A DNA stretch of 64,000 bases from Ectocarpus siliculosus. Taxonomy: Eukaryota > Sar > Phaeophyceae > Ectocarpales > Ectocarpaceae. Shown in pieces: positions 12,767 through 61,615 of the stretch (position 1 is its first letter; every line of letters starts with the position of its first letter). Made by a program: the position numbers and the translations under genes. The stretch spans positions 1,823,384 through 1,887,383 of the forward strand of contig FN649741.1 of the NCBI GenBank assembly GCA_000310025.1, read 5' to 3'. The notes below the pieces were generated by a model. The model searched no databases. It saw only the letters and a program-made list of their open reading frames with translations, and was not told the DNA's origin.

Positions 12767-13132
12767 TAGTGTTTACACATTGATAGTAGATCTTTAGGAC
12801 TAACGCGTTCTGATTGGTCGGGCGTTGTTCGGCGTTGGTTCTGGTGGCCGATTCCTCTCCAGCGCCCTCTCCCCGTTCCGCATTAAAGAGTAAAGAGTAT
12901 ATGTAACTCTTTAGGACTAACCGATGTTGAACGTAGCAAGGCTAGGTTCTTCACGCGAGCACGGCCTAGCGGCCGCGAACTGGGCGGCACTAGGCTGCGC
13001 CGCGTGCTCCGAATGCGGAACGGGGAGAGGGCCCTGGAGAGGAATCGGCCGCCAGAACCAACGCCGAACAACGCCCGACCAATCAGAACGCGTTAGTCCT
13101 AAAGATCTACTATCAATAATGTGTAAACACTA
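12767..13132. mobile_element. Tc1/mariner-type MITE with long TIRs
   Basis: Begins TA-GTGTTTACACATTGATAG and ends with the complement followed by TA, giving the TA duplication expected of Tc1/mariner elements. Arms are about 110 bp (12,769-12,884 and 13,012-13,130). They match nearly perfectly, including GACTAACGCGTTCTGATTGG and the GGGGAGAGGG segment. The loop repeats CTTTAGGACTAAC once more and holds no open frame of note. Total length between the TAs is 362 bp. The high arm identity suggests a fairly recent insertion. Confidence 0.85.
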
Positions 13133-19809: not shown

Positions 19810-22800
19810 ATGCTCTTCTACAAGGTGTTGGGCCTGCTGGCTTGGCAAAGCCTGACGGCATGTAGCGCCTTCCATGTACATCTACCACCGTCGCCCCGCG
19901 ACACGCTGTTTTCCACGGCAACTCCAAGGCAGCTGTCGATGAGCACCGTCACCCCGCCAGGCCCGAGTACCGCTGCCTTGCCTGTTTTCACCGCGAGGAC
20001 AGGAGAGGTTTTCGACTGGAACAAGCAGGTTCGACGTGTGTGTGTTTGTTCCCCCCTGTTGCAAAGCGGTGGTCTTTCTGTGAGGATGCTCTCTATAAAA
20101 AGCGGTGGCTTCCGGTTGGAATAATAAACAAGCGGAGGTTTTTACCCTCGATAGGTTTGGACGCACCAGCTGTGAAACCACAACACCCAAACGCAAAACT
20201 GCACGCTATGCCATGTTCTACACGTCAAACGTATATATATATAGTTTTGTGGCATCGAGGCCCAGCACGCCACCGGAACAACAACCGAACTCGGCATTTT
20301 TCTCTCTTTCATGTTCTGTTGTTGTTCTTCCTTCCTTTTATCATCATCATGGAGGTTTCACGGCGGTTCAGGGCCTGTTTTTAACGTTAACCCTTTGGAG
20401 TCTTCGGCCGGTCTGAGAGATCATTGATTGATCATTTTATCCATTTTTTTTTTTTGCATCGGGCTGAACAGACGGTCTAGTCGTGTAGGGGAGGATAGGA
20501 AAAAACCCGAACCCGCACGCAGAGGAGTTGTACAGCACAGCATGCTAAGCGAGGGCACGCCACACACACGCCACGCACAAACCACGAAAGGGTGCGCCGA
20601 GAGCTCATGGGGAGGCATCTACGCCCCGCGTGGTCTGCCCTGTCTAGCTGGGCGGCGTTGTTGGTAGCGCTTGCGGTTGCTCTACCAGCAGCGCCAGTTG
20701 GCATTCCTGCTTCTACATTGGCGCCCGTCTCCCGCGTGCAGCAGTCCACACTCGCTTTGTACGCTGGCATGGAGGACAGCGCGGCTGACATCGACCCATA
20801 TGAGCCTAGCGATGATGGGGATTCAGACGACGAGTTTGATCTAGCCCCCCAAGTCCCGAGCGCGGTATGCTGCAAACTCGCACAACGCTGGTCTCAACAC
20901 GAGGGGGGCAGCTCGGCACCATCAACAACAGCGGCAGCAGCATCCCACCCCGGCATCACCGGTCACGCCGCCGGCTCGGACGACCACGCGTGAGCCGCGA
21001 CAACCGATGCATCTGCAGATAGCGGAGTCGAAGCGGCAAGCGCGGGAGGCAGCAGAGCGGGGGCAGCAGCAGTGGGAGCAGCAGCAGCAGCAACCATCAC
21101 CGGAGCCTGCTCCAGCCAACAGCTCAAACTCGCAACAACAACAGACCCCGGCACGACCGTTGACGGAGCTGCTCCGGACAACGTCGCGTGAGCCGCAACA
21201 GCAGCAGCAGCAGCAGCAGTAACAGCAACCGTCCCCACCGGATCCTTCTCCGGCCACGAAGTCCGTATTCGGCGCTATCATTAGCCGCGGCTTACGGACC
21301 GGGCAAAAGTGCGGCAACAAGGTTGGAGGTAGAACAGCAGGGTTTTGCAAGCACCATGATGGACAACAAAAGCGCCGCAAAACGGCCTCAGGTGCAGCTG
21401 TTGGAGTGGGGGACAGCGTCCAGGCAGGGAATTATGACTCGGAGTCGGAGTTGGGTGGTGGCGTGGACGAATTGCAGACTCCTGGTGCGCATCCTGTCAT
21501 AGCGAAGTCCAGGGAACTGCACTACGCCCAGGCCGGGAAAATCCAGGATGAGGGCTTCAGGGCAGCGCAGGAGAGTGTGTGGCACCTCAAGCACCACAAA
21601 CTCCCAAAACCAAAGGTGCGCCACATAGTGCTTCGCCTACCTTTGAGCGCTGGTGTGTTTCCATGAAATTGTACGTCTGCGTGAGAAAACACCGTGAAGC
21701 ACACAACAGTGTGCTTTGATTAGGTACAATAAACACAGTCTACACACGTTTCTTGTTCACTGTTTTTGGAGTAGCACCGCCCCGTACAATGTAGACGGCT
21801 GACTAACGACAAATGTGTGTGTCGCTCATTGCCGTAGGCGATACTGCTATGTGCCTGTTGTACTGTGACCAATCGTAATGTATGTTTGTACCATTGCGCC
21901 GCGTGTTGTTCGGTGCTGCTGTACGACTCTATTTTTCTTTCGGGTGTATTTTTGAGTTGCCCTCTAACGATACCCGTCCCTGGTGTTTTTTGTTGGCCTT
22001 TTCCAGGCTGGTGACCCACCTCCCCCTCCCATGCCGGACGACGATCCCAAAGGGTGGGTGTTGGAGGGACTACCCCGGGACAAGTCATCCGACCCGTACA
22101 AGCGACGGCACAAACACCCCGGCGGCAACAAGTTCAGCCTATCGGACCAGCTGAAGACGAGTCTACCGAACGTCGACAAGCAAGGGCTAGCTGCTTTGCG
22201 TTCTTTCGTCAACGGGAAGGGTGGGGGTCTCCCATTCATGTTCTTAGAGAAGAGTTTCCCGAAGGAGGCGCAGGACGTCGTCCTCGAGGAGGTGAGGAAA
22301 ACCAAGGTCGTGCTTTGTGTCTTTCAAAAATATTCTGCGAGTTAGGGCATACCCGCCCCCCCCGGTGTTTGCCATCGGGGTTTGGGTTTTCGTCGCTTGG
22401 CAATGACGTTGTAAAACAAGCCCCCCACTCGGTGTTTGCCATCGGGATTGGGTTTGCGTCGCTTGGCAACGACGTTGTAAAACAAGCCAATTCACTCCGT
22501 GAACTCGGCAACCAGGTTACCGTGTTTTTTTTTACCTCGCTTTTTTTTTTTGGCGGTAACCATAATGGTGGTCGAGTAGATCATGTTGTGCGGGGTCGAG
22601 AAACCTCACTCCGCGCAACGGGGGATGGTCGCACCACGTTGTGTTAAAATAGTCAAGCATCCTCGAGGCAGTTATACATTGCATCCAACTGTCTCTGGAA
22701 GTGAAAGCACCAGAAAATAAATTAAGTCATACGTAGCTGTCATCCGTACGCAAGGAAGTAAGCACAAGATGCCGAACACCCTTAGCAGGATGCAGCTCAC

Positions 22801-25800
22801 CCTTCATGCGACTCGCCAAATACCTCACGGCGCTTCGCGCTTGGTGATGTGAGAGCCTGGTCCGGTGAGAACCCGGCGTGCTCCGTCCCGGCTTTGTAGG
22901 GATGCGAGGTCAATGGTCTAACGACTACGGCATGCACGACTATGAGTACACCCCCCCNNNNNNNNNNNNNNNNNNNNNNNNNNNNNNNNNNNNNNNNNNN
23001 NNNNNNNNNNNNNNNNNNNNNNNNNNNNNNNNNNNNNNNNNNNNNNNNNNNNNNNNNTAAAAACCAGGGTTCTGTCTTTGAGTTTTTTTATCCCCCCCCC
23101 CCCCCCCCCCCCCCGAGGCCCCCCCGGTGTTTGCCATCGGGGTTGGGTTTTCGTCGCTTGGCAACGACGTTGTAAAACAAGCCCCTCCCTCGGTGTTTGC
23201 CATCGGGATTGGGTTTTCGTCGCTTGGCAACGACGTTGTAAAACGAGCCAATTCACTTCGTGAACTCGGCAACCAGGTTACCGTTTTTTTTTTTCCCTCG
23301 GTTTTTTTTTGGCGGTAACCATAATGGTGGTAGATAATGTTGTGCGGGGTCGAGAACCCTCACTCCGCGCAACGGGGGATGATCGCACCACGTTGTGTTA
23401 AAATGGTCAAGCATCCTCGAGGCAGTTACACAGTGCATCCAACTGTCTCTGGAAGTGAAAGCACCAGAAATAAATTAAGTCATACGTAGCTGTCATCCGT
23501 ACGCAAGGAAGGTAAGCACAAGATGCCGAACACCCTTAGCAGGATGCAGCTCACCCTTCATGCGACTCGCCAAATACCTCACGGCGCTTCGCGCTTGGTG
23601 ATGTGAGAGCCTGGTCCGGTGAGAACCCGGGGTGCTCCGTCCCGGCTTTGTAGGGATGCGAGTTCAATGGTCTAACGACTACGGCATAGCACGACTATGA
23701 GTACCCCCCCCCCCCCCCCCCCCCGACAAACAACAAAAGAGTGGTGTTCAAGTCGTGGAATGGTGTTCATCATGCCACGCGGCAGGAGGACGAGTATACC
23801 GGCCACTGCGCGCACTAAAGCATAAGCGCGTACTGTATAACGGTCGACAGTGTCCACGAAGCAGTTTTCACTTCGAACTGTTTGTAAGGGCATGGGTTTA
23901 TCGTTACATGTTGAGACGTGCAGGAGCTTTGCTTAGACGGTCGGGGGGGGGGGAGGGGGCATTCGTGAAACACGATGGGGCTAGGATCCACCAGGTATCA
24001 GAGTCGACAAGAAGAAACATGCATACGTCAAAGGTAGGCAGCGACGACGCGTGAAAGTAGTTCTAGCATCGCACTCGCCAAAACAACTACCATCATCAGC
24101 GACACTGTAAATCACACCAGTCACGTTGCACGGAACCCGCAGGAGTCATGTATGCCTTCATGGCTACCTGAAACCAGGGGCTATGTTTTCGAAGGGACGC
24201 TGTGCACCACCAACTATCTTCAAGATGTTGTGCTACGCTTCCTCCAGGCTGGATAACTTTTCGTTGTGCCAATTTTTTTTTCACAGATCCCTCTTGTGTC
24301 CCGCCCCTTCCCGCCTTTATATCCCGTCCTCTTACCAGGCGAACGGGTACGTCAACTTCTGCGCCGACGAGTCTGACCCGCCCTTTGAACACCAAGAAGA
24401 TCGGCACCGGGCGAAGAAGGTGACGCGTGGCTTTCAGACGGTGCCGTACAAGGACCTGGCGGATGGATCTCGAGCGTACGGCTTCGAGCGCAAGCACCTG
24501 TATGGCGTGATGGGTATCCTGATCACCGCGGGGATCACCCAGAAGCGGCGGATCACCGATCACTGGGGAGTGGAAGACCATGACAACTACCCCCTGGTCC
24601 GTGCCTGTATGCCTCGAGACCTGTTTGTCCTGTTCTACGGCCGCTTCTTCCACTTGGCCCCGGCCACCGGCAAGCTGAACAAGGACGATCCCCAGTACGA
24701 CTGCAAACACCACATCAGGTATGCCCGATAACGTATATGTTTCGTTCCCCTCGGATGTGTTGCCTGCCCCGCCCCTTCAGCACAACGGCCTAAGATATGT
24801 ATTCCCCAAATGTGAAAAATAACGAAGTATGTACTAGAAGAAACGTCTCAATAAGAAAACAGAGGAGCGACCCCTAAAATAGAATACTCTACTGTTCGTA
24901 AGACACGAGGGGTTGCGGGGGGGGGGAGTGTTTGTGTCGAATAATAAAACTCAGAAAGATACACCAAGCAAACAGCTTTTGTCTCTCTCTTCCCCCTCTC
25001 CAATGTGCTACCCATCCCCTCATATGAACTTCATGAAAACGGACACCTCAGGCCCGCGGGCAGTTGCGTTGGCATAAAGTGTATGTCTTTGTCGGAGCGT
25101 GAAGCGCCCATAACGACGCCGGCCCAAAACTACGCCGGGTAGCTCGGCAGATGCTGTGTTTCGACGGTATAATGTTTCCCGACGAACCAAGTGTGCCCTC
25201 CGCCAGACCGCGTACGATGACTTGTTTCGAATGTGACCACAAAAAATATCTGCGACTCTTGGCAGGAAGCTGGAGGACATGTTGAACAAGTGCTGGAGCG
25301 AGCTTGTGGAACCGGGCGCATGGCTATCGTACGACGAGCAGATGGTTAAGAGTACGGCGAGAGTGATGTTCGCGCTCATAAGGTTCAACAAGGCGAAGCC
25401 TATCAAGCACGGTGAGGTTGAAATTGAAAACCCGAGTAGATCGTGGGGGGGCGGGGGGGGGGCGGGGGCCTTATCCCTTGTGTGTGATGTCGGTTGCATC
25501 ATCGGTTCCCAGACCGTTGCATGTAAACATTGCGTTTTCGCCTTTTTTTTTTTTTTGTGTACAACCATGAGGGTGGTCTTGTAGAACACATTGTGCTGAG
25601 TCGAGAACCCTTTGCACTCCGAACCCTCACTCCCTGCAAAGGGTATGATCACCCCACGTTGTATTGAAATTACTCAAGCACCCTCGATGTAGTTACACAG
25701 TGCTGTTGTCTCTGGGAGTTGAAGTACCAGAAAAAATAATTGCCCATTCCCAGCCTTCCTCCGAACGGACGTCAGCAAGCACAGTACGCCAAACACTAAA

Positions 25801-28800: not shown

Positions 28801-31800
28801 CACTTTGACCGGACGGGGCATTTCAAGCACAAATGAAGACAGGGCGGTATTTCTCGGCACCCCCTAACCCTGCAGTACGTCCATTATTTAGGGCAACACC
28901 ACAGGAACACGGCACGGCCGAGACCGTTGTTGAGGCGATCAAAACAACAAGCCAAATTGAAAGCATGACCAACGAAAACATCCGGCTTTGACCCTGACAA
29001 AACAGCATTGTGCCTTCAGCCATGACAACGTCGAACACACCTACAGCTACACAGCACTTGTTTGCAACACGCCAACATGTCCAAGTAGCAGGTCTTGCGA
29101 AGGACGGCTGGCGCCTCTAGCACGAGAACGCCTCAACTTCGGAGGCTTCCAATTCCTCGTTTCCAGACCACAACGCACGGTAAGCGTTCGTGAAACACTC
29201 CGCCCTCTTGAGCTGCACTCCCCTACCTCGAGCATTCATGGCCATCGCCCCGTCGAAGCAAGCCTGTGGCATTACATGCGTTGACGAGGATACACACATC
29301 AGTCACCGGAGCCTTACTTTCATACACGTTCATATGGACGGAGAAGGCGAGGAGTGTGCCCATCAGCCACGCTGCAGTGGGCATATCGGCGTTTCAAGGC
29401 GACATGCCACTTCCAACTCAACTTCCTAGCGTCGTGACGGGTGCATTAGCGATATTCGCCGACACCGGCACAGACAGTCATTTTTGAAGAGCAGGGCACA
29501 GATAAGGGAGGAGGCCAACAACATGAAACACACAGAACATCGTACAGCAGTACATGGCACCGCCGACGACACATCGCCCAGCAGGCGCTTACTCTAACAG
29601 CGACTCGCGGGCAGCAGCAGGAAGGAAGGAGTTTCTCTACCTACATGCATACAACACGTGACTCTAGTCTACTTGCTGACTTGTTTGTTGCACGGCTGAA
29701 TAGATAAACAGGTGGCATTATTTCACTAACATGTCAGTGTATAACCTGCAGCACAGCAGGGGCTGCTGAAACGTATCTACATGCATATCTACAACGGCCA
29801 GCAAAGCTCTCCTTTCTCTCTTCGCTTCGTGCTCCTCATACTTGTACAACAACAACAACGACAACAACACACAACAACACCACACCCGCCCCTCCTCATA
29901 CGCAAGCACTCACTTGGTTGCGGTGTTTGTTCCCCGTGGTTGAGCCCGATCGTGCTTGCACGTCCTGGGTCTTCACGGCAGCTATGATGTGGGCGTGCTA
30001 CACGCCGCACACACCCGGGTGATCGGCATCAGCTACCTTGGCTGCTGCAGGAGCCATGCTGGGCATGGGCTCGGGCTCGGTCACGTGATGGCAATACTCC
30101 CCTCCCACGGCGGCGGCAATTTCGAAGGCGAAAGCACGCGCCAGATTGTTGCTTGTTCCATCTTCCGATGGTGGGTTGTCGGCCATCAAAGACACCAATT
30201 GATCGTGGCAGGCCGTTGCGTTGCCGGCCTTGTACGCCTCGACGTCTGGTGCTGGCAATTCCATAGCTTGCTGCATAGCTTGGGGCGGTGTAACGTGCTA
30301 CTGCTGCTGTATGCCACAATATATCCATCTATATCTACAGAAAAAGTCTAAGATAGATTAGCAATGAATCCATAGCGTCAGCGAAGGGCTATCTGTGTGT
30401 CCACGATTTCCCGAACAGCACACAGCGACATCTCCCCTGTGTGTTTTTTTGTTTTTGTTGTTGTTGAACCTTTGAGTTTTCCATCGTTTCTGTGTATGAG
30501 GAAGGCGGGGCTTGCTCTCTACCTGCCCTTTCTGCTGATGGCAAAATTACTTGGCGCAGCGCTGGACTTACGTCGTCGTCTTGAGGCCACGCGAGCCTGC
30601 CTGCAGTGAAGTGGATATATGCTGTCTGGTTTTCACCCTTCTTTTTAGGCGACTGGTTTGGTTGACGGACGTGATGCTCGGTGAATGTGTCGCGCATTTT
30701 TGTTGTGCGGTGACCACATACTTAAGGAACACTTCAAAGCAAGCAAACGAAACAGGGCCCGATGTGCCATGGTGCGGTTAACTGTACAATTTATGCCGTG
30801 TGGTGACCAGTTACTGTACCGTAAGAAAATGCGAAGAAAATGCGCATTTCTGTGCATTTCCGTGGTGGCTGGTTACCGTACAAGAAGATTACCGCGGCGA
30901 CCAGTTACCGAACGAAATTTACCGTGGTGGCCAGTTACCGCCCAATAAATACAGTATTGTTCCGTGGTTTCTGGTTACGTGGGAAATGATGCCGACATGA
31001 AAAGCGAACCTCAGCCAACGAAAAACACAGTTCTATTGACAATATTTGTGTACAGTCTGGAAAGTATTAGTTAGTCAGATTCCGAAACACAGAGGTCGAA
31101 CCAGAAGTAAGTATGCAACCATAGCCAGAGGTGAGAACACACGCTCCGAAGAAGTAACTGCTGAGGGTGTCCCGCATGTTGTGGCGTGCATACAGAACGC
31201 CCCACTACGCACGTACAGTACGTTGAGACTAAAAACATGCACAATCTAAGGCCTGACCATAAGAACAGTCAAGAAGCCTAGTACTACCTGTATAGTCGGC
31301 GTGCGGGTACCCGAAGACACAATAGAATAAGGAACGAGCCTCGGCCGAAATAAGAGTTTCTGGAGTGGTTGCGCGTTCTGTATAGACTAATTTTTCGGCC
31401 CGAAACATTCCGAGAACGACCCAGGCGCAGGCTATTTCACCGGTCCCCAGCGGTGCCGGTTCGCAAAAAAAAAAAATGTTGCCTCTTTTATAAGATCACC
31501 AATCTTCAATAAAGGCGTACTACTTGTACTTGAGTACACACAGCTCTAGTCTACATCGACTAGTCACAGGTACATACATACATACATAGCATACACACCG
31601 GCATACCCTGTGTACAGCACAACCAACCTCCTCCGATGGCAAAGCAACTGCCGTGTATGTGCTCCAGTAGAGCATGTCGGGAAGCTGATGGCATGCCCAG
31701 CCTTACCCTACCGTCGGATGACCGGAGGGCGAGATGGCTGAGATCTTTTATTTAGGAGGCCGAACAAAACTACACGAAGCTTGGCGGGCGGGCGTCTCTC

Positions 31801-34800
31801 GTTCATGTCTCCCCAAGACCACCAATTGAAAGGCAACAAGCCGAATCAGGGCAGTAGCGGTAGCCCTCCGTTTGTTAGCGGACGCAAAGAAGGGTTCTGT
31901 CCTCTATCAGACGGACGAGCAGACAAGGGAGGCGACAGCAGGAGCCTTGGGGAAGTTTCGGAAGGCCGAAGCTCGGTGTGCTGCCTGGGAAAACGAAGCC
32001 TCCGACCAGCTGGGGCATCGGACTTGCTTGATAAATTGCGGCTGAAGGACGAAGGACGATGTCATCTCTTCACTCCGAAGTGATGTTACTTGTTTCGCTT
32101 CAATAATGGTCGCCACCCACATCACAAAAGCGACGGTAGCGTTGTCGAACACACTCCCGGACGCGGCGAGCCCCTCTAGGCTACGCACGAACACGATCCA
32201 GAAGCGACGGTGCTCTTACGGGATCACAGATACTACGCGCTGCGCTTGGCTGCAACCGCTTCAGGATCTTGTGGTTGATGCTCCCCTCCCGCCTGCCCCC
32301 CCCCCCCGACTCTGTGCCTTCCACACGCCTGCCTGCCGTCGTTCCCACCACACACCGCACCAGCAACATTATTCTCAGTGAAGAGATGACATCGTCCTTC
32401 GTCCTTCAGCCGCAATTTATCAAGTATGTCCGATGCCCCAGCTCCTTGTCTCGAGGCTTCGTTTTCCCAGGCAGCACACCGAGCTTCGGCCGGCGCTTCG
32501 GCCTTCCGAAACATCCCCAAGGTTCCTGCTGTCGCCTCCCTTGTGATCTGGGACAGCACCCTTCCTTGCGTCCGCCAACAAACGGAGGGCTACCGCTACT
32601 GCCCTGATTCGGCTTGTTGCCTTTCAATTGATGGTCTTGGGGAGACATGAACGAGAGACGCCCGCCCGCCAAGCTTCGTGTAGTTCTGTTTGGCCTCCTA
32701 AATAAAACATCTCAGCCATCTCGCCCTCCGGTCATCCGACGGTAGGGTAAGGCTGGGCATGCCATCAGCTTCTCGACATGCTCTACTGGAGCAAATACAC
32801 AGCAGTTGCTTTGCCATCGGAGGAGGTTGGTTGTGCTGTACACAGGGTATGCCGATGTGTATGCTATGTATGTATGTATGTACCTGTGACTAGTCGACAT
32901 AGACTAGAGCTGTGTGTACTCAAGTACAAGTAGTACGCCTTTTTTGAAGAATGGTGATTTTATAAAAGAGGCAATTTTTTTTTTTTTGCGAACCGGCACC
33001 GCTGGGGACCGGTGAAATAGCCTGCGCCTGGGTCGTTCTCGCAACGTTTCGGGCCGAAACATAAGTAGTCTATGCTACGTCACGTCGTCCCCAAACATCA
33101 GAGTTGATCTTCGTGATTTCATTGCAGTTTTCTCACGAATCATGTCCATAGAGATATAGAGATGACGCCCGCACTTGGGGAACTTTTTGTTTTGGCAGAG
33201 GTTGGGCTAGAAATGGCTGCTTCGTGAGTTTTCGTGTACACAACGCGCCACCGCTGAAGAACTATGCAGTTAACAGCTTGACCCTTAGAATATCCAAAAT
33301 CTAAGAGCTTGGCCACAGGTGCTCAGCCGAGAGGCCTACACCAAAACCTATATGGTCGGCGTGGTGGTACAGTGCCCGATATAATACCTGTGGTTGACAG
33401 CCGAATTTACCGGCATTATAGCGGGAGACCGGCATTGTGTAGAATCGGCCTCTATAATGTCTGTTGCGGCATTACTGAGGGGTTGAGAATTCCCAGGGCT
33501 GTGCACGGAGTAGAACCGCTCCGCGGAGCGTTTTTGTTTTTTTCAAGTTCCACTGGACGTTTTTTTTCATTTGAAAATATCACGGAGGGGTGCGGATCGG
33601 TTTATCCGAGGGCAAAAGTCTCACGGAGCGGAGCGATTTTTTCGTTCATGTCACGGAGCGGTTTATCCGTAGTGCAGTTTTTTGCACGGAGCGGTTTCGT
33701 TTACTCCGTAGCATCAACCGCGCGAACCCGTGGCGTTGAGGTTTTCGGTCAGAAAAAAACGTCGAAACCGCACGGATATCCGTAAAAAATCGACGGAGTA
33801 CCTGCAATTTCTTGAAAAACGTTGGGTTCGGCACACCGAAGGCCGAGTTTTCCGCACGGTGTGCTGTGGTTGGAGGCCGCCGGTGACACCGTTTGATGCG
33901 TCCTCGCAGCCAGGAAAGCCCAAACAGAATTCCGCAATAATGCCGGTACCGGCACTAAATAGGAAACCGTCGAGTCATTCAATACGAAAACGTGTAGCAC
34001 ACACCGCAAGCATCAGGTGATGGGAAAGTGACAGTGGATGCTGTGACAGGAGGTTTTGGTAAGCTGCGACCGACCAGATTTCAGAGGCGCGTGCATCGAA
34101 GGGTCCTTTGTTAGCTCATCCCTCATGCATCTTATCTTTGGTTCTACCCCCTAAATTATTTCGTACGCATTTTGAGAAAGAACACAAAGCAACAGACAGT
34201 TCGATAATAAAACATTTCACACACCCATGTACTACGTGCCGTATAACCGACGAATACTCGCCCACACAGAACACGAAAAAAACAACAGAGGAAATCCAAA
34301 CATAAAATGGTCAGGCTGCTGGTGTTCAGCTATCAACGACAACCGTACCCCACACACCTACCAACAGGTTCCACCGAACAAACACCAAACTACTGATGCT
34401 GAATCGACTCAAAAACTAGCATCAGATCTTCTCGAAGTAGCCCCTCATGTCTCCCTGTCGGGTTGGCATAGAGGCATGCGCTGCGATCATCGCCATCTTA
34501 TAGACATGGTGTTCCCCTGCTGATGATGCGGGGTACAGCTGGTAGGGGTATATTGCCTCGAAGTGTGTGTGTGGTGGTGTGGTGGTGTGCTGTGTGTGCA
34601 AGCAATCTTGAGAACCGGCATGATTCACGGGCCACCAACTCCCCGAACCGGCATGGTAAAGGACCTCTAGACTGCCAGTATTATGCCGGCTTGAAGCTGT
34701 GCCAGCCGAGTTCACCGGCATCATGACGGGCAAACGGCATTAGTCGACCTGCAATAGACTATTCCGGGCCAAGTATTAACGCGGTGCTATCTGTAGCTTT

Positions 34801-48730: not shown

Positions 48731-49156
48731 GTCCCCCCCGCCCTGATTGGATTTTTTTTTTTCCTCTTTTTTTTTTTGCGGTAGTTCGGGCAGAGGATGT
48801 AGTGCGGGGTCGAGAACCCTCACTCCGCGCAAAGGGGATTATCGCACCACGTTGTGTTTAAATGGCCAAGCGCCCTCGAGGCAACTGCCTCTGGAAATGA
48901 AAGCACCAGAAAATAAATTAAGTCATACGCAGCTGTCATCCGTACGCAGGGAAGTAAGCAATAGATGCGGAACACCCTTAAGCAGGATGCAGCGCACCCT
49001 TCATGCGACTCGCCGAATACCTCACGGCGCTTCGCGCTTGGTGATGTGAGAGCCTGGTCCGGTGAGAAGCCGGCGTGCTCCGTCCCTGCTTTGGGGGGAT
49101 GCGAGGTCAATGGTCTAACGACTACGCCATGCACGACTATGAGAACACCCCCCCCT
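48731..49156 (+). repeat. C/G-tract-ended repeat, copy R5 (lacks the 67-bp units)
   Basis: Starts with a C-run and T-rich part and ends GAACACCCCCCC. The flanks read TTGGTTAG before the left C-run and CTGGTTAG after the right one, a probable 7-8 bp target-site duplication, so the C-runs belong to the element ends. Confidence 0.85.
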
Positions 49157-51869: not shown

Positions 51870-54000
51870 CAATATAGCTTTTTTGTGAACCGTGTTCGTA
51901 ACCCTTGTGTGTGTTGAAGATGCTTGCATCACTTGCATTAAGGACAGTAGACGAGATCAAGACAGAGAGACAAGACGGCGGAAGAGAGAGAGTGGAGTAA
52001 GCACGCAGCAAGCACTCCCACAGAGATCCGGGGTCCGGTGAATCAACAGTTATCCCAACCCAGGGTAGATATCAGTTCCTACCCTCGATACCCCCTAACA
52101 CGGTCCCGTCGGAATATCCAAACCCACCAATGAACACACCAACACCCTCCCTCGTTCTTCACGCGAGTAACTAACCACAAATGGGCATGTACACGCCGGA
52201 TGTAACCGAAAATACGCGTGAAATTCCCCACGCCAAAAAACAATACATGAGGGAAACCCCGGCCTCCGGATCAAAATCCCCCACAAATAATTCACCCCAA
52301 CCAATCACTGCTAGGGCAAGATCAAGGCATGCATCATAACGTCGCAGGTGTGGGCACAAGGCCGTCCCGCCATGGCCATCCCGCCGTCTGATTTGGATGT
52401 TGCCCTCCGACGCCCCTTCCGTCGCGGCTGTGGGCACACGGACTTTCGGCCGCTTTCTGTCACTCCACCCTCCCGTGCTGCTGTCATGGTGGCCATCTCC
52501 ACCATCTCCTGCTCCTGCTGCTGCTGCTGCTGCTGTGCGTAGATGGAGTGCGACCCGCGCGGCTTTAGTGTCTTGCTCCCGCCTGTGCTTGCAAGGTCTC
52601 CTGCGCCACATCCAGGTCCTCGTCATCGCTTGCCACCGTGATCGCCAGCATTGCCTCCTCGTCCTTCGCCGACGGGCACTTGCTCTTATCATGTTCAAAT
52701 CCATCGCAGTTCTCGCACTGGTGGAGCATGAGTTCGGCAATGGCGGTAGTGCACGAGGACGGCTGGTGCCCTCGCCTGTTGTACGGGTAGCACCGACCCC
52801 TGCGGCGGCCGCCGTCACCGCGGCCGTCTCCGCCACCGCTGCCGGTGCCGCTGCCCGCCGTCACCGACGCCGTTGCGGTTGCCGTTGCAGCCACGCCCCC
52901 CGCGTGTTGCACCGACAATCGACACTACCTCACCCCACCGCGTCCTTCTTCTCATTGGCACACGACTAGCTTCTCCTGGTTGTTCCGATGGCGCATCGAC
53001 AGCTTTCTAGACGCAAGCACTTTTCCGCGGTCAACAGGCGCACTCGGTGTGTGTGCCGTTTTCGGCGCCCCCTCCAGGGCCTCACCGCTCGTCGTCCCGA
53101 CGCCATGAGTATGTTGCTCTCACTTATGGCCAGTGCCACCTGCGGCGGCTGCAACTCTACCAGCGCTGCCAATCTTAAAGAGATGTCCTGGGATCCACCA
53201 AACCCGCCTTTAGCAGGGACCTGAAACGCCCAAACCGTTTCGCCTTCCACAACCAGCCTCCTGCTGATCATATCTTCTGCAACCATGTAGTGGTATGCAA
53301 ACGCCCACAGCAGCAGGCTGTTCTTGGAGGAATCACCCCTTGACGTCCCCGCTGCCCGATCCTACTGTATGTCCGGGCCCACTCCAGCAGGGATCCTTGA
53401 CACTGCCACGCTGGCTCCCGGTCTGGTGCTTCTCCCTTCGTGCTGTTGGGCGGCGTGATTCCCTCGTTGTGCGGCCCCTTCCAGCAGACCCCGGGCGAAC
53501 CTACCCGCCCGTAACTACAGCACCCATCGTGGCGCCGCCGGACTCCCCCCTGCTTCTGTCCCTTGCCTATGGCGGCTTGCAGCAGGTCCGTCAGCTCCTG
53601 CACTTGGCCTGAGAGGCTTGAGACTTTGTCTTCCACACCGGTGACCCTATCTGGCACACCGTCGGCGGAATCGGCCCCTGCATCGGCGCCACTCATCTCA
53701 AACACGGGGTCCCCCGAGGAACACACTATACAGCGTAGAGTGTTCGCTCTTTTTTCCTTGTGTGTGTTGAAGATGCTCGTATCACTCGTATTTACGACAG
53801 CAGACGAGGTCAAGACTCTGAGACAAGGCGGCCGGAGAGGAGTGAGCACGCAGCAGCAAGCATGCAGCAAGCCATCCACACGGCGCCCGGAGCCCCGTGA
53901 ATCAACAATAAACGCAACCTGTCGGGTACGCAGTTCCTGCCTTCGATACCCTCTAAAGTCCGGTCAAGGAGTGACGTCCTGTTGAATATCCAAACCTACC
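51870..54000 (-). mobile_element. Degraded gag-only LTR retrotransposon
   Basis: Two direct repeats of at least 230 bp, about 51,870-52,110 and 53,735-53,990, share TTGTGTGTGTTGAAGATGC, GTGAATCAACA and GAATATCCAAACC(T/C)ACC. They enclose about 1.6 kb with minus-strand gag-like sequence that includes a CCHC zinc knuckle of the CX2CX4HX4C form (near 52,690-52,730) and Ser/Ala-rich regions. No polymerase, integrase or protease was seen, so it is a non-autonomous or internally deleted element. The LTRs differ visibly and the coding part is broken in several places, so it is a fossil rather than a recent insertion. Confidence 0.75.
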
Positions 54001-54019
54001 CACATGCACACATTCTACA

Positions 54020-54640
54020 CCGAAAACATGCCGCCCAAGAGGAAAGCTGCCGCCATGCACCTCTTACTACCTGGGCTCGTGGGTATTGAGTGATACCTGC
54101 GGGATTATGGGGCTGCCTCCGTTCGAGTTCTCGCCCCCGTCACCCAGCCATCAGGACAAACGAAATCGTTTCAAAACAGGAAAGCGGAGAAGGCAAGAAG
54201 AGCGGAGACGGACGGAATTTCTTCTTCGCTGCGGGAATAAAATACACGACCACGCGGCTTTAATGCCAGGGATCAACACGCGGAGACAAGGGGTAGAATG
54301 TTAATCCGTGTGGGTACATGCGTGCCAAAGAGCAATTTGTGTTTTCGAAAGGGTGCAACATACCGACCACCCGCTGCCAACCCCTCCCAACTTGATTCCT
54401 CGATTGTTATTTTTCCCCAGCAAACCAAACAGAGAGATACCTACACAAGACGGTCTGTTGCCCACAGGGGAGGTAGATATCGATCTGTGCTGCCCGGGAA
54501 ACCGTAGAAAACGTGTCCGCTTGGTGTTATTAGTTCATTGCAAAAGGCCTGTCTATCTTTATGGCGACATGTTCTTTGGGATAAGTCTCGATCTAGGGGC
54601 AAAAAGATAGGCAAGTTTCACGATTTAGGCTGATTCTCAT
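54020..54640 (+). repeat. Old repeat next to the LTR element
   Basis: 54,020-54,300 is related to 11,430-11,790. 54,463-54,500 resembles 19,480-19,520. Nothing coding is convincing. Confidence 0.45.
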
Positions 54641-55342
54641 ACAGCCGGATTCCTTACCCGAAAAACATCACTTTCTAGGATGGGCAGAAATCCGACTTCT
54701 TATACAGCCGGATTCTTCACTTTTTCGGGTCCACAGAATCCGGGTTCAGTATTTTGGGTTGCCTACGCCCAGAAAGTTAGGCAAGGGTTAAGGCAAGTAG
54801 GAAGACATCAGATTCACTACTTACTGTCGATTCCCAGGACATACAAACACATGCATTGGCAAACTATGAGCTCCGCAGGTAAAACGTGACAGTTCCCGAT
54901 GCGACAACAATAGATTGAAGAACCGAAAAAGACGACAAATGGATTCTGATCTCAGCCTCGTGCCGTCACGCCGATAATCGGCAACGTTGTTTGCTCCACC
55001 GGTGGAGTAACCTCTTACTTGCTCTACCAGGCATATCTCCATCCACAGAGCTCCACTTGACCTCAAACCAATTGCATCGTGTAGCTATGGACTACAGCTT
55101 TCTGTAATGCTATTTTGAAGCTAAATCGGACCGGTGGCTGCAGAGATATGCTGAAAGGGGGAGGCTCCGCAGCATGTCAGGAAGCAGTAATCGTCTCCAA
55201 CCTCCGTCCAAACAGCTCCCATTGGCCTCAAACCTTTTTCATCGTTTCTGCACGGTCCATACCGTTCATGCCAAGCTATGGGACACTCCCATCTAATATG
55301 TTCCAGCAGATATGGCCAGCAGAGGGGGTTCCGCAGCATCTA

Positions 55343-55950
55343 GGGGGGGGGGCGGTGTACTCAAAGTCGTGCATGCCGTAGTCGTTTGACCATTGACCTC
55401 GCATCCCTACAAAGTCGGGACGGAGCACGCCGGGTTCTCACCGGACCAGGCTCTCACATCACCAAGCGCGAAGCGCCGTGAGGTATTCGGCGAGTCGCAT
55501 GAAGGGTGCGCTGCATCCTGCTAAGGGTGTTCGGCATCTTGTGCTTACTTCCTTGCGTACGGATGACAGCTGCGTATGACTTAATTTATTTTCTGGTGCT
55601 TTCACTTCCAGAGACAGTTATGAGCACTGTGTAACTGCCTCGAGGGTGCTTGACCATTTCAACACAACGTGGTGCGATGATCCCCCTTGCACGGAGTGAA
55701 GGTTCTCGACCCCGCACAACATGATCTACTCGACCACCATTATGGTTACCGCCAAAAGAAAAACCAGAGGTAAGAAAATCCGGTAACCTGGTTGCCGAGC
55801 TCACGAAGTGAATTGGCTTTTTTTACAACATCGTTACCAAGCGACGAAACCCAACCCCGATGGCAAACACCGAGGGGGGGGCTTGTTTTACAACGTCGTT
55901 GCCAAGCGACGAAAACCCAACCCCGATGGCAAACACCGGGGGGCGGGGGC
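55343..55950 (-). repeat. C/G-tract-ended repeat, copy R6
   Basis: Reverse copy with two 67-bp units, inserted in the left palindrome arm. It is flanked by GCATCTAG at 55,336-55,343 and 55,949-55,956, an 8-bp (or slightly longer) target duplication. Confidence 0.9.
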
Positions 55951-56394
55951 ATCTAGGGGAGGGTAAATGTCAATCTTCCCGGTATACCTCCCGTCACATA
56001 GCTGAACCACGCCTACCTCTGCCCGCACCGTGTTGGCGCGGCTCTCACCTATCATTGAAGCCATCGCACACCCCGATCGGACGAGTTGGTGCCGAGAAAC
56101 GCCCACCCACGGGGGCTCAATGGCTTATCGGTCCGGTGGAGCAGATCAGCTTGTCTGCTCCACCAGGCCAAACTCTATCTACAGGGCGCTGTTTGTCTTA
56201 CGAAGGCTGTCATTGCGTTGGCACGGCTCATAGCTATCATACAAGCCATCGGGCACTCCAATCGAACCGGTGGATGCAGAGAAACACCCACCCACGGGGG
56301 CTCAGTGGCTCAAGGGCCTGCTGCGCCACCAGGCCAAACTCTATCTACAGGGCGCTGATTGTCTTTCGAAGGCCTATGGCAGGATAGGGGCACC

Positions 56395-56640
56395 CCCTGG
56401 ATACGGGTAAATTTTCTCAAACTGGCACTCCCCCGGGCCAACGCCACCATAACGGGCACCCACCCCCCGACTAACGGGTACCCCCCCCCGTAACGCCCCC
56501 CCCTGATGGTATGGGGCACTCCCCCTCAACCTCAACGAACGGCACTCCCCGTCAACAACGGGCACCCCACCTCCATGGTGGGCACTCTTCTTTGCTTACG
56601 GGCGCCTCTTGGCGCCGTGTTCGGACGGCGCAGTTGTCTA
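56395..56640 (+). repeat. C-rich degenerate tandem repeat
   Basis: Variants of AACGGGCACCCCCCC / GGCACTCCCCCTCAAC, each 20-40 bp, with several long C-runs. Lies between the left tandem units and the TATTCCCT minisatellite. Confidence 0.6.
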
Positions 56641-56659
56641 AGGAATGATGTAGGTCCGC

Positions 56660-57305
56660 TGTATTTCCGGGACAGATACACCGTATTCCCTGATCACATA
56701 CACTGTTTTGTTGATCAGATACGCTAAACACTGTATTCCCTGAGCAGATTAGCTTTATTCCCTCGTTAGATACACCGTATTCCCTCTCTCGTTCATCCGT
56801 ATTACTTTACCAACTACACTGTTTGCCTTGGTCAAGATCGCTGAATTCCCTTATCCGATACACCGTATTGCTTGTACTTTTCACTGTATTCCCTGAGCAG
56901 ATTCAATGTATTCCCTCGTCAGACGCACCGTATTCCCTCGTTCGCTTCACTGTATTCCTTCATCTAATACACTGTACTCCGTGGTCAAGATCACTGTATC
57001 CCTTCTTCAGATACAACACATTCCCTGGTTCGTTTCACTGTATTCCTTCATCAGATTCACTGTATTCCCTCATCCGATATGCTGTGCTCCGTGGAATGCA
57101 GTGAATCTGACAAGGGAATACAGTGTATCTGATGAGGGAGTACAGCGAATCTGCTCAGGGACTACAGAGTATCTGACAAGGGAATACAGAGTATCGGGTC
57201 AGCGAAGGCAGCGTGTCTGACCAGGGAATACAGTGTACCTGACGAGGGAATACAGCATATCTCATCAGGGAGTGCAGTGAATCGGACGAGAGGGTGCAGT
57301 GAATC
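56660..57305. repeat. Strand-switching TATTCCCT minisatellite
   Basis: Units of about 22-26 bp with consensus GATACACTGTATTCCCTCGTCA run in plus orientation up to about 57,075. From about 57,095 they run as the reverse complement (CTGAC..AGGGAATACAGTG) to 57,305. The switch lies near CTGTGCTCCGTGGAATGCAG, the axis of the large palindrome. Confidence 0.85.
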
Positions 57306-57869
57306 TGACGAGAGCATGGCTCAAAACCACGTATCTACTCCACCGACCTTTGAGCCATGAGTCCCTGTGGGTGGGCGTTTCTCACTACACACTGATTCAA
57401 TCGGGGTGCGCGATGTCTTGTAAGACAATGCAAGTTCTATTAGGACAAACGATGTCATGCGGATGGAGTTTGGCCTGGTGGAGCAGCTAAGCTCCACCGG
57501 CCTTGAGCCGCTTAGCCCCCGTGGGTGGGCGTTTCTCTGAATCCACTGGTCCGATCGGCGTGCCTGGTGACCTGTATGATAGCTGTGGGATGTGCCAACA
57601 CAACGAAAGTCGTCGTAGAGCAAACAGCACCCTTTACATAGAGTTTGGCCTGGTGGAGCAGTTTAGCTCATGTGCTCCACCGGCCGTTGAGTTACTGAGC
57701 CCCCGCGGGTGGGCTTTTCTCTGCACCTACTGGTCCGATTGGGGCGGATGATGGCTTGAATGATAGCTGTGAGCCGTGCCAACACCGTGCGGGCAGAGGT
57801 TGGCGTGGTTCCGCTATGCGGCGGGAGATATACCGGGACACTTGACATTTAACTTCCCGCCCTAGATTC

Positions 57870-58428
57870 TCCCCCCTCCGGTGTTTGCCATCGGGGTTGG
57901 GTTTTCGTCGCTTGGCAGCGATGTTGTAAAACGAGCCGATCACTTCGTGAGCTCGGCAACCCGCTTGGTTACCGCTTTTTATTGTTTTTGCCTTGTTTTT
58001 TTTTGCGGTAACCATAATGGTGGTCGAGTAGCTTATGTTGTGCGGGGTCGAGAACCTTCACTCTGCGCAAAGGGGATCATCGCACCACGTTGTGTTTGAT
58101 TGGTCAAGCACCCTCGAGGCAGCTACAAAGAGCTTACAACTGTCTCTGAAGTGAAAGCACCAGCAAAGCACCAGAAACCAAATTTGGTCACACGCAGCTG
58201 TTATCCGTACGCAAGGAAGTAAGCACCAGATGCCGAACACCCTTAGCAGGATGCAGCGTACCCTTCACGCGATTCACCGAATACCTCACGGCGCTTTGCG
58301 CTTGGTGATGTGAGAGCCTGGTCCGGTGAGAACCCGGCGTGCTCCGTCTCGGCTTTGTAGAGATGCAAGGTCAATGTTCTAACGACATGGCATGCACAAC
58401 TATGAGTACACCGCCTCCCCCTCTAGAT
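57870..58428 (+). repeat. C/G-tract-ended repeat, copy R7
   Basis: Plus copy with a single 67-bp unit in the right palindrome arm. Its flanks CTAGATTC and CTAGATGC correspond to the complement of the R6 target duplication, so it sits at the mirrored site. Confidence 0.85.
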
Positions 58429-58805
58429 GCTGCGGAACCCCCTCTGCTGACCATATCTCTGCGGGAACATATTAGATGGGAGTGTCCCATAGCTTGGGAG
58501 AACGGTATGGACCGTGCGGATACGACGAAAAAGGTTTGAGGCCAATGGGAGCTGTTTGGACGGAGGTTGGAGACGATTACTGCTTCCTGACATGCTGCGG
58601 AGCCTCCCCCTTTCAGCATGTCTTTTCAGCCACCGGTCTTAGCTTCCAAGTAGCATTGCAGGAAGCTGTAGTCCATAGCTACAGGATGCCATTGGTTTGA
58701 GGTCGAGTAGAGCTCTGTGGATGAAGATCTGCCTGGTAGAGCAAGTAAGAGGCTGCCTGGTGGAGCCAGTAAGAGGTTACTCCACCGGTGGAGCAAGTAG
58801 CATTG

Positions 58806-59334
58806 CCAAAATACGGCAAATATCATTCAGGGAAATATTTCGCTCCTTTTCTCTGTTGGTCTACTTCCAGAAGCACATGGACGAATCCCACCCCGTTTAT
58901 TGCAGCAGATCCGCCGGGATTAAAGGAAAGTTCGCGTTCTTTCGATCTTGATGAAAATTGATGTACGGTGAGATAGTGACCAGAAACAGGGTTTCTGGGA
59001 AGGAATTTCATTAGCCCGTTATCCCTATGACACCGTTTGGACGTCAATGGTTCAGTTGCAGGGAAGATGGTAATGCTGCACCAGCAGAACGTTGTGGCTG
59101 CTTGTTTTGCGGCCACAACGCCATTTTCCGTTTTAAAATTTACCAATTCGTCGAGGAGTAGATAGCTTTCCCGCGAACTCAGGTTTGGCTAACCACTGGC
59201 CTACTAATGTAACCATGCATACTAAAACTAGTATATTTGGGCCGAAACCCCCTAAGAAGTGCATAAACACTCTCCGTGGTAGGTCCGCATGGATGGTTTT
59301 GTGTATATCTGCGTAGATTTCTTTACACACCATG
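58806..59334. other. No supported gene
   Basis: Spacer between the palindrome and the GCCCATGGGC minisatellite. No coding region, RNA gene or repeat recognised. Confidence 0.4.
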
Positions 59335-59985
59335 GCCGGCCTACGGACAGCCCTTGCGGGGCATGTGCGTGGGTGCCCATGACGCTAGCCAGACCGTGGG
59401 CAGCCCATCATCATATACATTTTATTTGCCCATGATCGCCGGTTGCTTCAGTGCGCGAGTGACCGTCATGGGTTGTCCGTGGGCTGTCAATGGGCAGTGC
59501 CCAATACGGGGCACTGCGCACTGCCCGTGGGTTGCGAAGGTGCCAATGGGTGCCCATAGACAGCCCATGGGTAAGCCCATGATGGGCAGTTGCGTATGTG
59601 CCCACTATGGGCTGCCCATGGGCTGCCCACGATAGGCACGTGCCCACCATGATGGGCAGTCGCGTGAGTGCCCATCATGGGCTGCCCATGGGTCGCCCAC
59701 CATGGGCACGTCCCCATGGGCCGCCCATGGGCAGCCCATGATGGGCAGTTGTATGAGTGCCCACGGTGGGCTGCCCATGGGCTGCCCACCATGCCATTGG
59801 CAGCCCATGCTCATCCATTGCGTTAATACTACCCCTAAGCCCATGATGGGCATTTCATGGGCCGCCCATGGGCAGCCCATGGGCGGGCCCATGGGTCACC
59901 CATGGGTAGCGCATTGGCAACCCATAGGCGGCCCATGAAGTGCCCATGGGTGACCCATAGGTGCCCCAGGGGCCGCCCATGGGGT
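59335..59985. repeat. GCCCATGGGC self-complementary minisatellite
   Basis: Dozens of CCCATGGGCNGCCCATGATGGGCA-like words, many containing the perfect palindrome GCCCATGGGC. Both strands read the same motif, giving spurious MGxPWAAHG frames each way. Unit length varies about 12-48 bp. Confidence 0.9.
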
Positions 59986-61615
59986 CATTTGGGAAAACTG
60001 TCAGTAGTGTGTGAGATTGTGATAACCGGGAGTCATTCGTCTACTACCCTGTATCTTCGTTGGTTTGTAGGAGTTCAAAACCATTCAAGAGATTACGTTC
60101 ATGGTTCACTACATGCTGCTGTTTCCCAACCAATACACGATCATAGTGCATGTATACTAACTAGTGTGTTGTGTACTTCTATCGGTGCATGCCTTGTTCT
60201 TGGTTGTTCGTTGTTCTACGCTGCGGAGCTATACTGCTGCTGGGGTGTCGTTACATCACAACCATCGTATGCATATTTTTCTACTCTTCCAGCGGTCGTC
60301 TGTTGACAATCTCTCTACCCAAGTTGTGTCCGGTAGGCCATAACAGCCGAAATCAAACCACAGCACTATTATTACCCTGGTGCCCATGAATAGATTTATC
60401 GATCATAATATGCCGGCCCTGGGTGCTGCGCTACGATCTTCCATGACTTGCCGCGGTTCTGGAAGGCATATTCCTCCACACGCGCGGTATTGTTATCCGT
60501 GCCTTTGGATTTATCGTTTCCTATGTTGTGTAACCGTCGATATTCTGCCTAGCTGCCGATTATTTATTTACGCGTCATGTGCACCTTCACAACCACCCCA
60601 CGAAGTCATGGGCGCACTGCACAACAAAACCCTCATCGGGCTCGTCGAAGATCGTATAATTTGTCTGCTCTATGGGTGAGATCGGTGGAGTTCCGCTACT
60701 GCTTCTTTCTGTAGAGTTTAAGAAATCTCCTCTTCCCCCCACGTTGTCCATGGGTTCTGACCGGGGGAGGGGAGTCGTAGGTCGGAGGACCCAAATTTTC
60801 GTATTAAAAGGACAACGACCTAGGGAGCGTGGAATGTTCTCAGGTTGATGCACGTCGTAACTTCATTTTCGATACGTCTGATAGGTTCAACGTAATGTTC
60901 GATACGGGCGAAGTAAGTTGGATGTTCCCGCAATTCCGGGGATATAGTGCTTCTTGGATCAACGGGTAGACCTTAAAGGTCGGGCGCTATTTTTGGAAGA
61001 GGTATGCCGTTTGGGCTTCCCTAAAAAGAGTTGGTTGCAATATTATTTTTCTTTCTCTGACACGAATGAATGTCCTGTAGTAACAATGTTTTTAAGACTT
61101 CGTCGGATGGATCAAAGGAAACAAGGAGAATACATGAAGTCTTTCAACATTGGGATGTCTTGTGGTACAATTTGTGCACCGTCGTTGTCCTAGAATGTAG
61201 TTTGGCCGTCTGTTATTGTTCAATGTATCAGCCCTCTGTGGTCATGTTTTTCATGTTGGTGCACCACGTCACTTCAATTTCTGTACTATCAGGTGGTTTT
61301 CTAACGAAAATCGTATTGGTTTGTTGGAATTTGGCTATTTTCTCGTGAAACTGTTAATCGCGAGGTCGAGAGTTCAGATATTTACCATTCTCTGTTTCCT
61401 TTTTATGTCTGGTGACACACATGTGTGTTGATCCGGATGGGAAAGGGTATTCAACATTGTGTTGGAGAATCTTGAACACTACGCGACGCAAACGAACGAC
61501 ATTGACAAGCGATCACCAAGAGATGTGCAAAGCCAACAGAAAGACGGCCGTAAAGAACAGACAAAACAAAAACAAACAAGCATCGGCAACCCAAGATTGA
61601 CACACGGGAGGCACC
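59986..61615. other. No supported gene
   Basis: AT-richer than its surroundings, with scattered short frames lacking domain or splice support. Confidence 0.4.

Follow-up and report, generated by a model that had tools for sequence, protein, structure and literature searches.

A dispersed family of foldback elements in Ectocarpus siliculosus, probably non-autonomous DNA transposons

What is the long palindromic element found in a 64-kb stretch of the genome of the brown alga Ectocarpus siliculosus, and how did it come to be there? A sequence-only reading of this stretch (G000:C16:1823384-1887383; "the window" below means all 64 kb of it) had taken the element for a foldback element, made of inverted tandem arrays around minisatellite cores. 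We analyzed the element within the window and searched the genome for its relatives (189 Mb, 492 contigs; C and L numbers are our handles for contigs and loci). The observation is confirmed, the foldback interpretation is supported, and the element is one copy of a dispersed transposon family. We think it very probable that the family consists of non-autonomous foldback DNA transposons that depend on a transposase of the Mutator-like type, and that the copy in the window was carried there inside a larger unit.

Architecture and family

Using the family terminus CGGCAATGCTATTTGCTCCACCGGTGGAG, we refined the ends of the element to 54979 and 58808 (3830 bp, no strand assigned). The terminus matches on both strands, and 85% of the element lies inside inverted pairs that are 100 bp or longer (inverted-repeat search of 54979-58808), the longest being 890 bp at 88.7% identity and the second 478 bp at 82.2%. 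In an inverted-repeat search of 54000-60000, the outer arm pairs are 55011-55124/58639-58752 (91%), 55129-55267/58500-58638 (96%), and 55381-55602/58165-58386 (92%). Closer to the center, 55957-56131/57684-57858 and 56133-56315/57501-57683 are inverted at 83% each, and there are further pairs besides. The nested pairs mirror about 57086, and some are offset by up to ~200 bases. The left arm of this copy also contains extra GC-rich sequence.

From the outside to the center, each arm consists of an outer domain (about 365-430 bp), tandem units of ~184 bp, and a 22-bp minisatellite that reverses near 57086. The left outer domain (54979-55342, + strand) has the terminus CGGCAACGTTGTTTGCTCCACCGGTGGAG; it is painted by the outer domain of another copy (L031) at 82% identity and is 92.3% identical to the right arm. 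The right outer domain, with its terminus, is at 58422-58808 (− strand; terminus match and module painting). By module painting, the left array (56031-56371, + strand) has two partial units and the right array (57462-57784, − strand) has one partial and one whole unit. The unit spacing is 185 here and ~184 in other copies, which agrees with the 170-190 bp proposed from the sequence. The proposed minisatellite core is also there: Tandem Repeats Finder and module painting place its forward half at 56728-57079 (+ strand) and its reverse half at 57093-57309 (− strand), with the mirror center near 57086 between them. In the whole window, CTCCACCGGTGGAG has exact matches at 54994 and 58780 only.

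Each unit had also been said to carry a hairpin. There is such a hairpin, GGTGGAGCAGA...TCTGCTCCACC, at a unit boundary (56135-56164, no strand assigned), and others start at 57477, 57652, and 58759. Exact hairpins of the form GGTGGAG-N(2-24)-CTCCACC occur four times in the element and nowhere else in the 64 kb, and the mean number in 100 shuffles of the element was 0.0. Three of the four sites are at unit boundaries and one is in the right outer domain, so the hairpins are real but "each unit" was a slight overstatement. (Rfam, at its gathering scores, had no match in the window.)

Many other copies were found across the genome. A DNA search with the element gave 234 matches (best candidates scored), many of them from a 600-bp repeat that is nested in the arms and is described below. 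The terminus, searched as CGGCAATGCTATTTGCTCCACCGG, has 67 genome matches with at most 3 mismatches, of which 34 are forward and 33 are reverse; the reversed-pattern control has 0. We write the family ends as CGGCAATGCTATTTGCTCCACC. The 184-bp unit has at least 99 genome matches (with 40 of 104 candidates scored), at foldback loci and at further places. Module painting of 20 stretches showed the mirror order of outer domain, units, and minisatellite, with the minisatellite in both orientations in 14 of them. (The other six are L013, L014, L032, and L057, which have no minisatellite, and L048 and L049, where painting showed just an outer domain.) Across the 8 elements measured, which have 184-bp and 22-bp arrays, the fraction in inverted repeats is 0.60-0.97. 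The outer domains of ~365 bp are 76-99% identical within a copy, as compared in 12 copies.

A handful of the 67 terminus matches are of a related second type, CGGCAATGC-ATTT-CGACA, seen at L057 position 1225, C14:402332, and C148:14671. It resembles the foldback terminus over the first dozen bases, one case is inside a foldback copy, and it is possibly a related family. Separately, another foldback copy (L029, element positions 1706-1730) contains ~4 GGGTTA units.

Target duplications, flanks, and arms

To look for target-site duplications, we compared the left and right flanking 9-mers of the nine copies that have both ends and different flanks. (Four loci that share their flanks were scored but kept outside this test.) The two 9-mers match at 7, 8, 5, 9, 6, 9, 8, 9, and 4 positions, so that six of the nine copies match at 7 or more. 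The mean is 7.22 of 9, versus 4.42 for cross pairs, and 12 of 100,000 permutations did as well. At length 9 the flanks exceed cross pairs by 2.8 matches. At no other length from 4 to 13 is this excess above 1.65, and it is small at length 7 (3.89 versus 3.60) and at length 8 (4.89 versus 4.04). The flanking 9-mers are 93% AT, versus 48% in left flanks 11-60 bases out. Over 63 ends, AT content is 75-94% at positions −1 to −9, 75% at −10, and 35% at −11. (Of 74 rows, we dropped 5: one for an N run, two for ends that were more divergent and identical to each other, and two for shifted ends. We then included two ends known from other analyses and set aside 8 that were duplicates or had shared flanks.) Because the flanking 9-mers match beyond chance and are AT-rich, we conclude that the family is a transposon with 9-bp target duplications. 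Together with arms of inverted tandem repeats that make up most of the element, dispersed copies with target duplications are what is expected of a foldback family.

The sequence-only reading had proposed a search for target duplications at the ends of the element. Most of the independent insertions that we tested do have them, but the window copy has none (1 of 9 positions match), and the shared-flank loci, the window included, match at 1, 1, 2, and 2 of 9. What lies beside the window copy offers an explanation. Flank A (54780-54978, no strand assigned) is common to other element-bearing loci, and flank B (58809-60019, no strand assigned) is common to other foldback loci and is also found without the element (shared-flank alignment for both). 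A and B both flank the element at the window and on C25, C9, and C33; C24 has B and, beyond a deletion, A, and C83 has A. As the window copy lacks a target duplication and shares both of its flanks with other loci, it appears to have been copied within a larger unit. A minisatellite of the GCCCATGGGCAGCCCAT type follows flank B here (59516-59985) and follows flank A in the right flank of L010, so the A-foldback-B unit has it on either side.

Was it this larger unit that spread to the locus? It could be that A-foldback-B is a composite, that the palindrome is only its middle, and that the composite was moved or duplicated whole. This is compatible with the foldback being a transposon in its own right, and we put its chances at about even. 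It would explain the shared A and B flanks at the window, C25, C9, and C33 (and those at C24 and C83), the low flank matches of the four shared-flank loci (1-2 of 9), and the grouping of the arms by side. In a tree of outer domains, the B-side arms of C33, C9a, and C25 group with that of C24 (support 96/91). On the A side, the arms of these three copies without C24 form only a weak group (81/58). On the other hand, B occurs without the element at the 7 other B starts that we fetched (6 by alignment and the seventh, L039, by its letters), independent loci have the element with neither A nor B, and ends of the composite were not found. B adjoins the element once at a slightly different junction (C26, L043). 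Since the element is found without A or B and B is found without the element, we conclude that the foldback is mobile on its own.

The same tree (29 outer domains, with both arms for 12 copies) bears on how the arms stay alike. For 7 of the 12, the tree joins the two arms of a copy as sisters (the window, C2, C483, C21, C34, C9b, and C134). C66 shares an open fork with C455, and the tree does not resolve the two C14m arms (locus L014, at C2:1469887). The grouping of arms by side fits a history in which copies were made of a single A-element-B unit and the arms of each copy then drifted. Within a copy, the arms are 84% identical in C25, 81% in C33, and 76% in C9a, but 92% in the window. This suggests that the window arms were homogenized later, with one arm copied from the other. 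As these loci would all hold the same copied insertion, they amount to a natural experiment, in which the arms drifted in C25, C33, and C9a and seem to have been re-homogenized in the window. C483 and C21 have arms that are 98-99% alike and poor 9-mers, a pattern that would fit recombination between copies; when flanks are matched reciprocally to look for such recombination, AT-rich 9-mers match by chance.

A bolder proposal is that this is an undescribed stramenopile foldback family whose arms are kept alike by arm-to-arm copying independent of transposition, with machinery that may come from a transposase group so far not linked to foldback elements. We consider this unlikely. We favor a non-autonomous transposon that works as follows. 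A transposase of the Mutator-like type, made elsewhere, would bind the ends of the element and perhaps also the repeated GCTCCACC motifs. It would excise the element and reinsert it with 9-bp staggered cuts. At times, the arms would be kept similar by templating one arm on the other. The window copy is not a simple insertion: it was carried here within the larger A-element-B unit, and only afterwards, probably, did its two arms become similar again.

Transposase and superfamily

The foldback family is apparently non-coding. The longest stop-to-stop frames of 8 elements are 147-374 amino acids, and the 374-amino-acid frame crosses a run of N. For ten long frames from 7 foldback copies, including the window copy, no Pfam family scored above the cut-off; the sole listed match was a weak one to ORC5_C (E = 0.023), below the cut-off. 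(The frames analyzed exclude those of L031 that contain N and those of L010.)

We considered three unusually long loci as possible autonomous partners and rejected each of them. First, the 12-kb spacing on C77 (L034/L035) arises because an otherwise ordinary copy has 9.2 kb inserted in its right end, with ~12 bp of that right end on both sides of the insertion. The insertion contains an open frame of 278 amino acids, possibly P-like, for which Pfam gave no family. Second, the C134 copy (7.4 kb) has a reverse-transcriptase frame (PF00078) that belongs to a nested element. Third, the RNase H frame at C16:5926000 (L049) also belongs to a nested element. Overall, 3 of 5 frames from long copies had no Pfam family. 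The partner transposase may be absent from the assembly or may have been missed.

Which superfamily would supply it? Target duplications are 8-11 bp, and mostly 9 bp, for Mutator elements, 8-9 bp for Merlin, and 7-8 bp for P elements (Galileo type). With a duplication signal that peaks at 9, and with outer domains that form long terminal inverted repeats (typical of Mutator elements, if not universal), the family is best read as Mutator-like, which is our best guess. The genome does contain Mutator transposases, with 45 matches to PF10551. Two resident Mutator copies (L052 865-6892 and L053 918-6946) are 99.7% identical over 6 kb and match PF10551 with equal scores, and the resident family has probably been active recently. 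These near-identical copies fit the single Mutator family reported for Ectocarpus, which has 56 copies, 42 of them intact, and makes up 0.13% (PMC12477816).

A second possibility is that the foldback relies on a transposase from outside the Mutator-like group: Merlin, the P/Galileo type, KDZ, or an undescribed group. We found no Mutator transposase with foldback ends in the genome. Merlin stays among the candidates because its 8-9 bp duplications would fit a length of 9. Also, foldback structure is reported to arise in several superfamilies (PMC4079207), and the Ectocarpus library has 51 unassigned DNA transposon families (PMC12477816). However, Zisupton and Zisupton-1_PGr (Dileera) make 8-bp target duplications, as KDZ elements do (PMC12730594), and neither this length nor the 7-8 bp of the P superfamily agrees with our peak at 9. 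Overall, a transposase from outside the Mutator group is doubtful.

Several observations do count against our preferred account, a Mutator-like foldback whose window copy was carried in a larger unit. A convincing duplication is missing in 3 of the 9 independent copies (C483, C21, and C134), and the AT-rich runs at the flanks raise the number of chance matches. When the arms are compared by plain identity, only 5 of 12 copies (C483, C21, C9b, C134, and the window) have two arms that match each other best; for C2, C34, C66, C25, C33, C14m, and C9a, the closest match includes an arm from a different copy. The window arms are sisters at 92% identity, with moderate support (88/87). Finally, we found no pair of termini that encloses a transposase gene, a distance of 24.8 kb separates the closest PF10551 match from any of the 67 termini, and the ends of the two resident Mutator copies are unrelated to the foldback terminus.

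Two other explanations can be set aside. N gaps do occur in other repeats and in the L031 copy, but an inverted duplication created by the assembler is very unlikely because the arms of the window copy are only 82-92% identical (8-18% different) and because more than a dozen loci show this layout, mostly in different flanks and in several cases between 9-bp duplications; the window has a single N run (22958-23057), which is outside the element. A palindromic satellite or minisatellite array that does not transpose is just as improbable: tandem repeats form much of the element, but satellites do not have fixed termini or 9-bp duplications and are not dispersed as single copies.

Neighboring repeats and known relatives

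A separate, retroposon-like 600-bp repeat, which the sequence-only reading did not mention, is nested inside both arms. The left copy (55343-55949, + strand) has G-rich ends with GCATCTAGGGG at both sides and was recognized from the genome search and from empty sites in other copies; the right copy (57871-58421, − strand) was recognized from the genome search and module painting. Some foldback copies lack the repeat at this site: L010 and L012 in the right arm, and L030, L031, L033, and the C77 copy in both arms. Copies are found genome-wide and are mostly 91-96% identical among the matches listed. The window contains four more (5-548, 22352-22957, 23120-23718, and 48786-49155, at 88-93%) and a 250-bp piece (25547-25796, 70%). 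The two copies at 22.3-23.7 kb have the same orientation, with the N run between them. Some solo copies lie inside G runs with surrounding direct repeats (L024, and L017, which is shorter), but no direct repeats were shown around others, such as L022.

The most abundant repeat of Ectocarpus is RTEX-N1_Ec32, which is ~600 bp long and has over 6000 copies in a 200.2-Mb assembly (PMC12477816). It is like the nested arm repeat (~600 bp, thousands of copies) and not like the foldback itself. Judged by size and abundance, the nested repeat is likely to be RTEX-N1_Ec32. This repeat and the Mutator family both fit an Ectocarpus-like brown alga as the host; a RuBisCO search gave no match. Neither the foldback terminus nor a 34-base piece of the 600-bp repeat has an exact match in the IMG/VR viral contigs.

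The window has two other inverted-repeat elements. The one at 31466-32987 has 449-bp arms that are 95% complementary and 624 bp apart; the inverted similarity runs past an A-run into the flanks, so its true ends are further out. A small one at 12779-13117 has 106-bp arms that are 98% complementary.

The foldback family is ordinary in kind, and its nearest known relatives are Tetris and Tm1. As in the FB elements of Drosophila, which make 9-bp duplications, the arms are tandem repeats in opposite orientation, but the repeats of FB elements are 10, 20, and 31 bp and the units here are 184 and 22 bp. Tetris, from Drosophila virilis, likewise has an outer flanking domain, internal tandem repeats of ~220 bp in both arms, and an inner domain; it is also non-coding, makes 8-10 bp target duplications, has no autonomous partner that was found, and was provisionally assigned to Mutator (PMC4079207). 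Compared by description only, the Ectocarpus family differs in its ~184-bp units, its central reversing 22-bp minisatellite, its AT-rich targets, and its very different kind of host. Tm1, a Mutator/foldback element of root-knot nematodes, has composite inverted repeats with tandem motifs and mostly 9-bp duplications, and one of its terminal motifs, CGGTTAA, begins with CGG, like the terminus here (PMC3169594). Unlike our family, Tm1 has ~14-bp motifs, asymmetric ends, no target preference that was seen, and, in some copies, a Phantom-type (Mutator-type) transposase, of which we found none (PMC3169594).

The statement that foldback elements are rarely described outside animals was too strong. 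They are listed for rye and Arabidopsis (PMC4079207), and the references of the Tm1 paper cover Tnr8 of rice, FARE of Arabidopsis, and foldback elements of plants (PMC3169594). FARE, Tnr8, and the multiple-inverted-repeat Mutator-like elements (PMC3310237) share long or repeated inverted ends with the Ectocarpus family, again by description only, but its unit architecture is unlike that of the multiple-inverted-repeat elements. In the open-access literature, we found no foldback transposons from brown algae or stramenopiles (the matching titles concern small RNAs) and no match for "foldback element" with inverted repeat in Phytophthora. The main text of the Ectocarpus transposon paper does not contain the word "foldback" (PMC12477816), and the family may sit in that library under another name.

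If our account is true, it would extend foldback transposons with Tetris-like arms of layered tandem repeats to a brown alga, and so to a lineage that evolved complex multicellularity independently. In Drosophila, related foldback elements have been found at inversion breakpoints and have seeded a satellite (PMC4079207). A family with dozens of termini would be a candidate source of rearrangement in the Ectocarpus genome, and its shared-flank copies would allow tests of how the arms of foldback elements stay alike.

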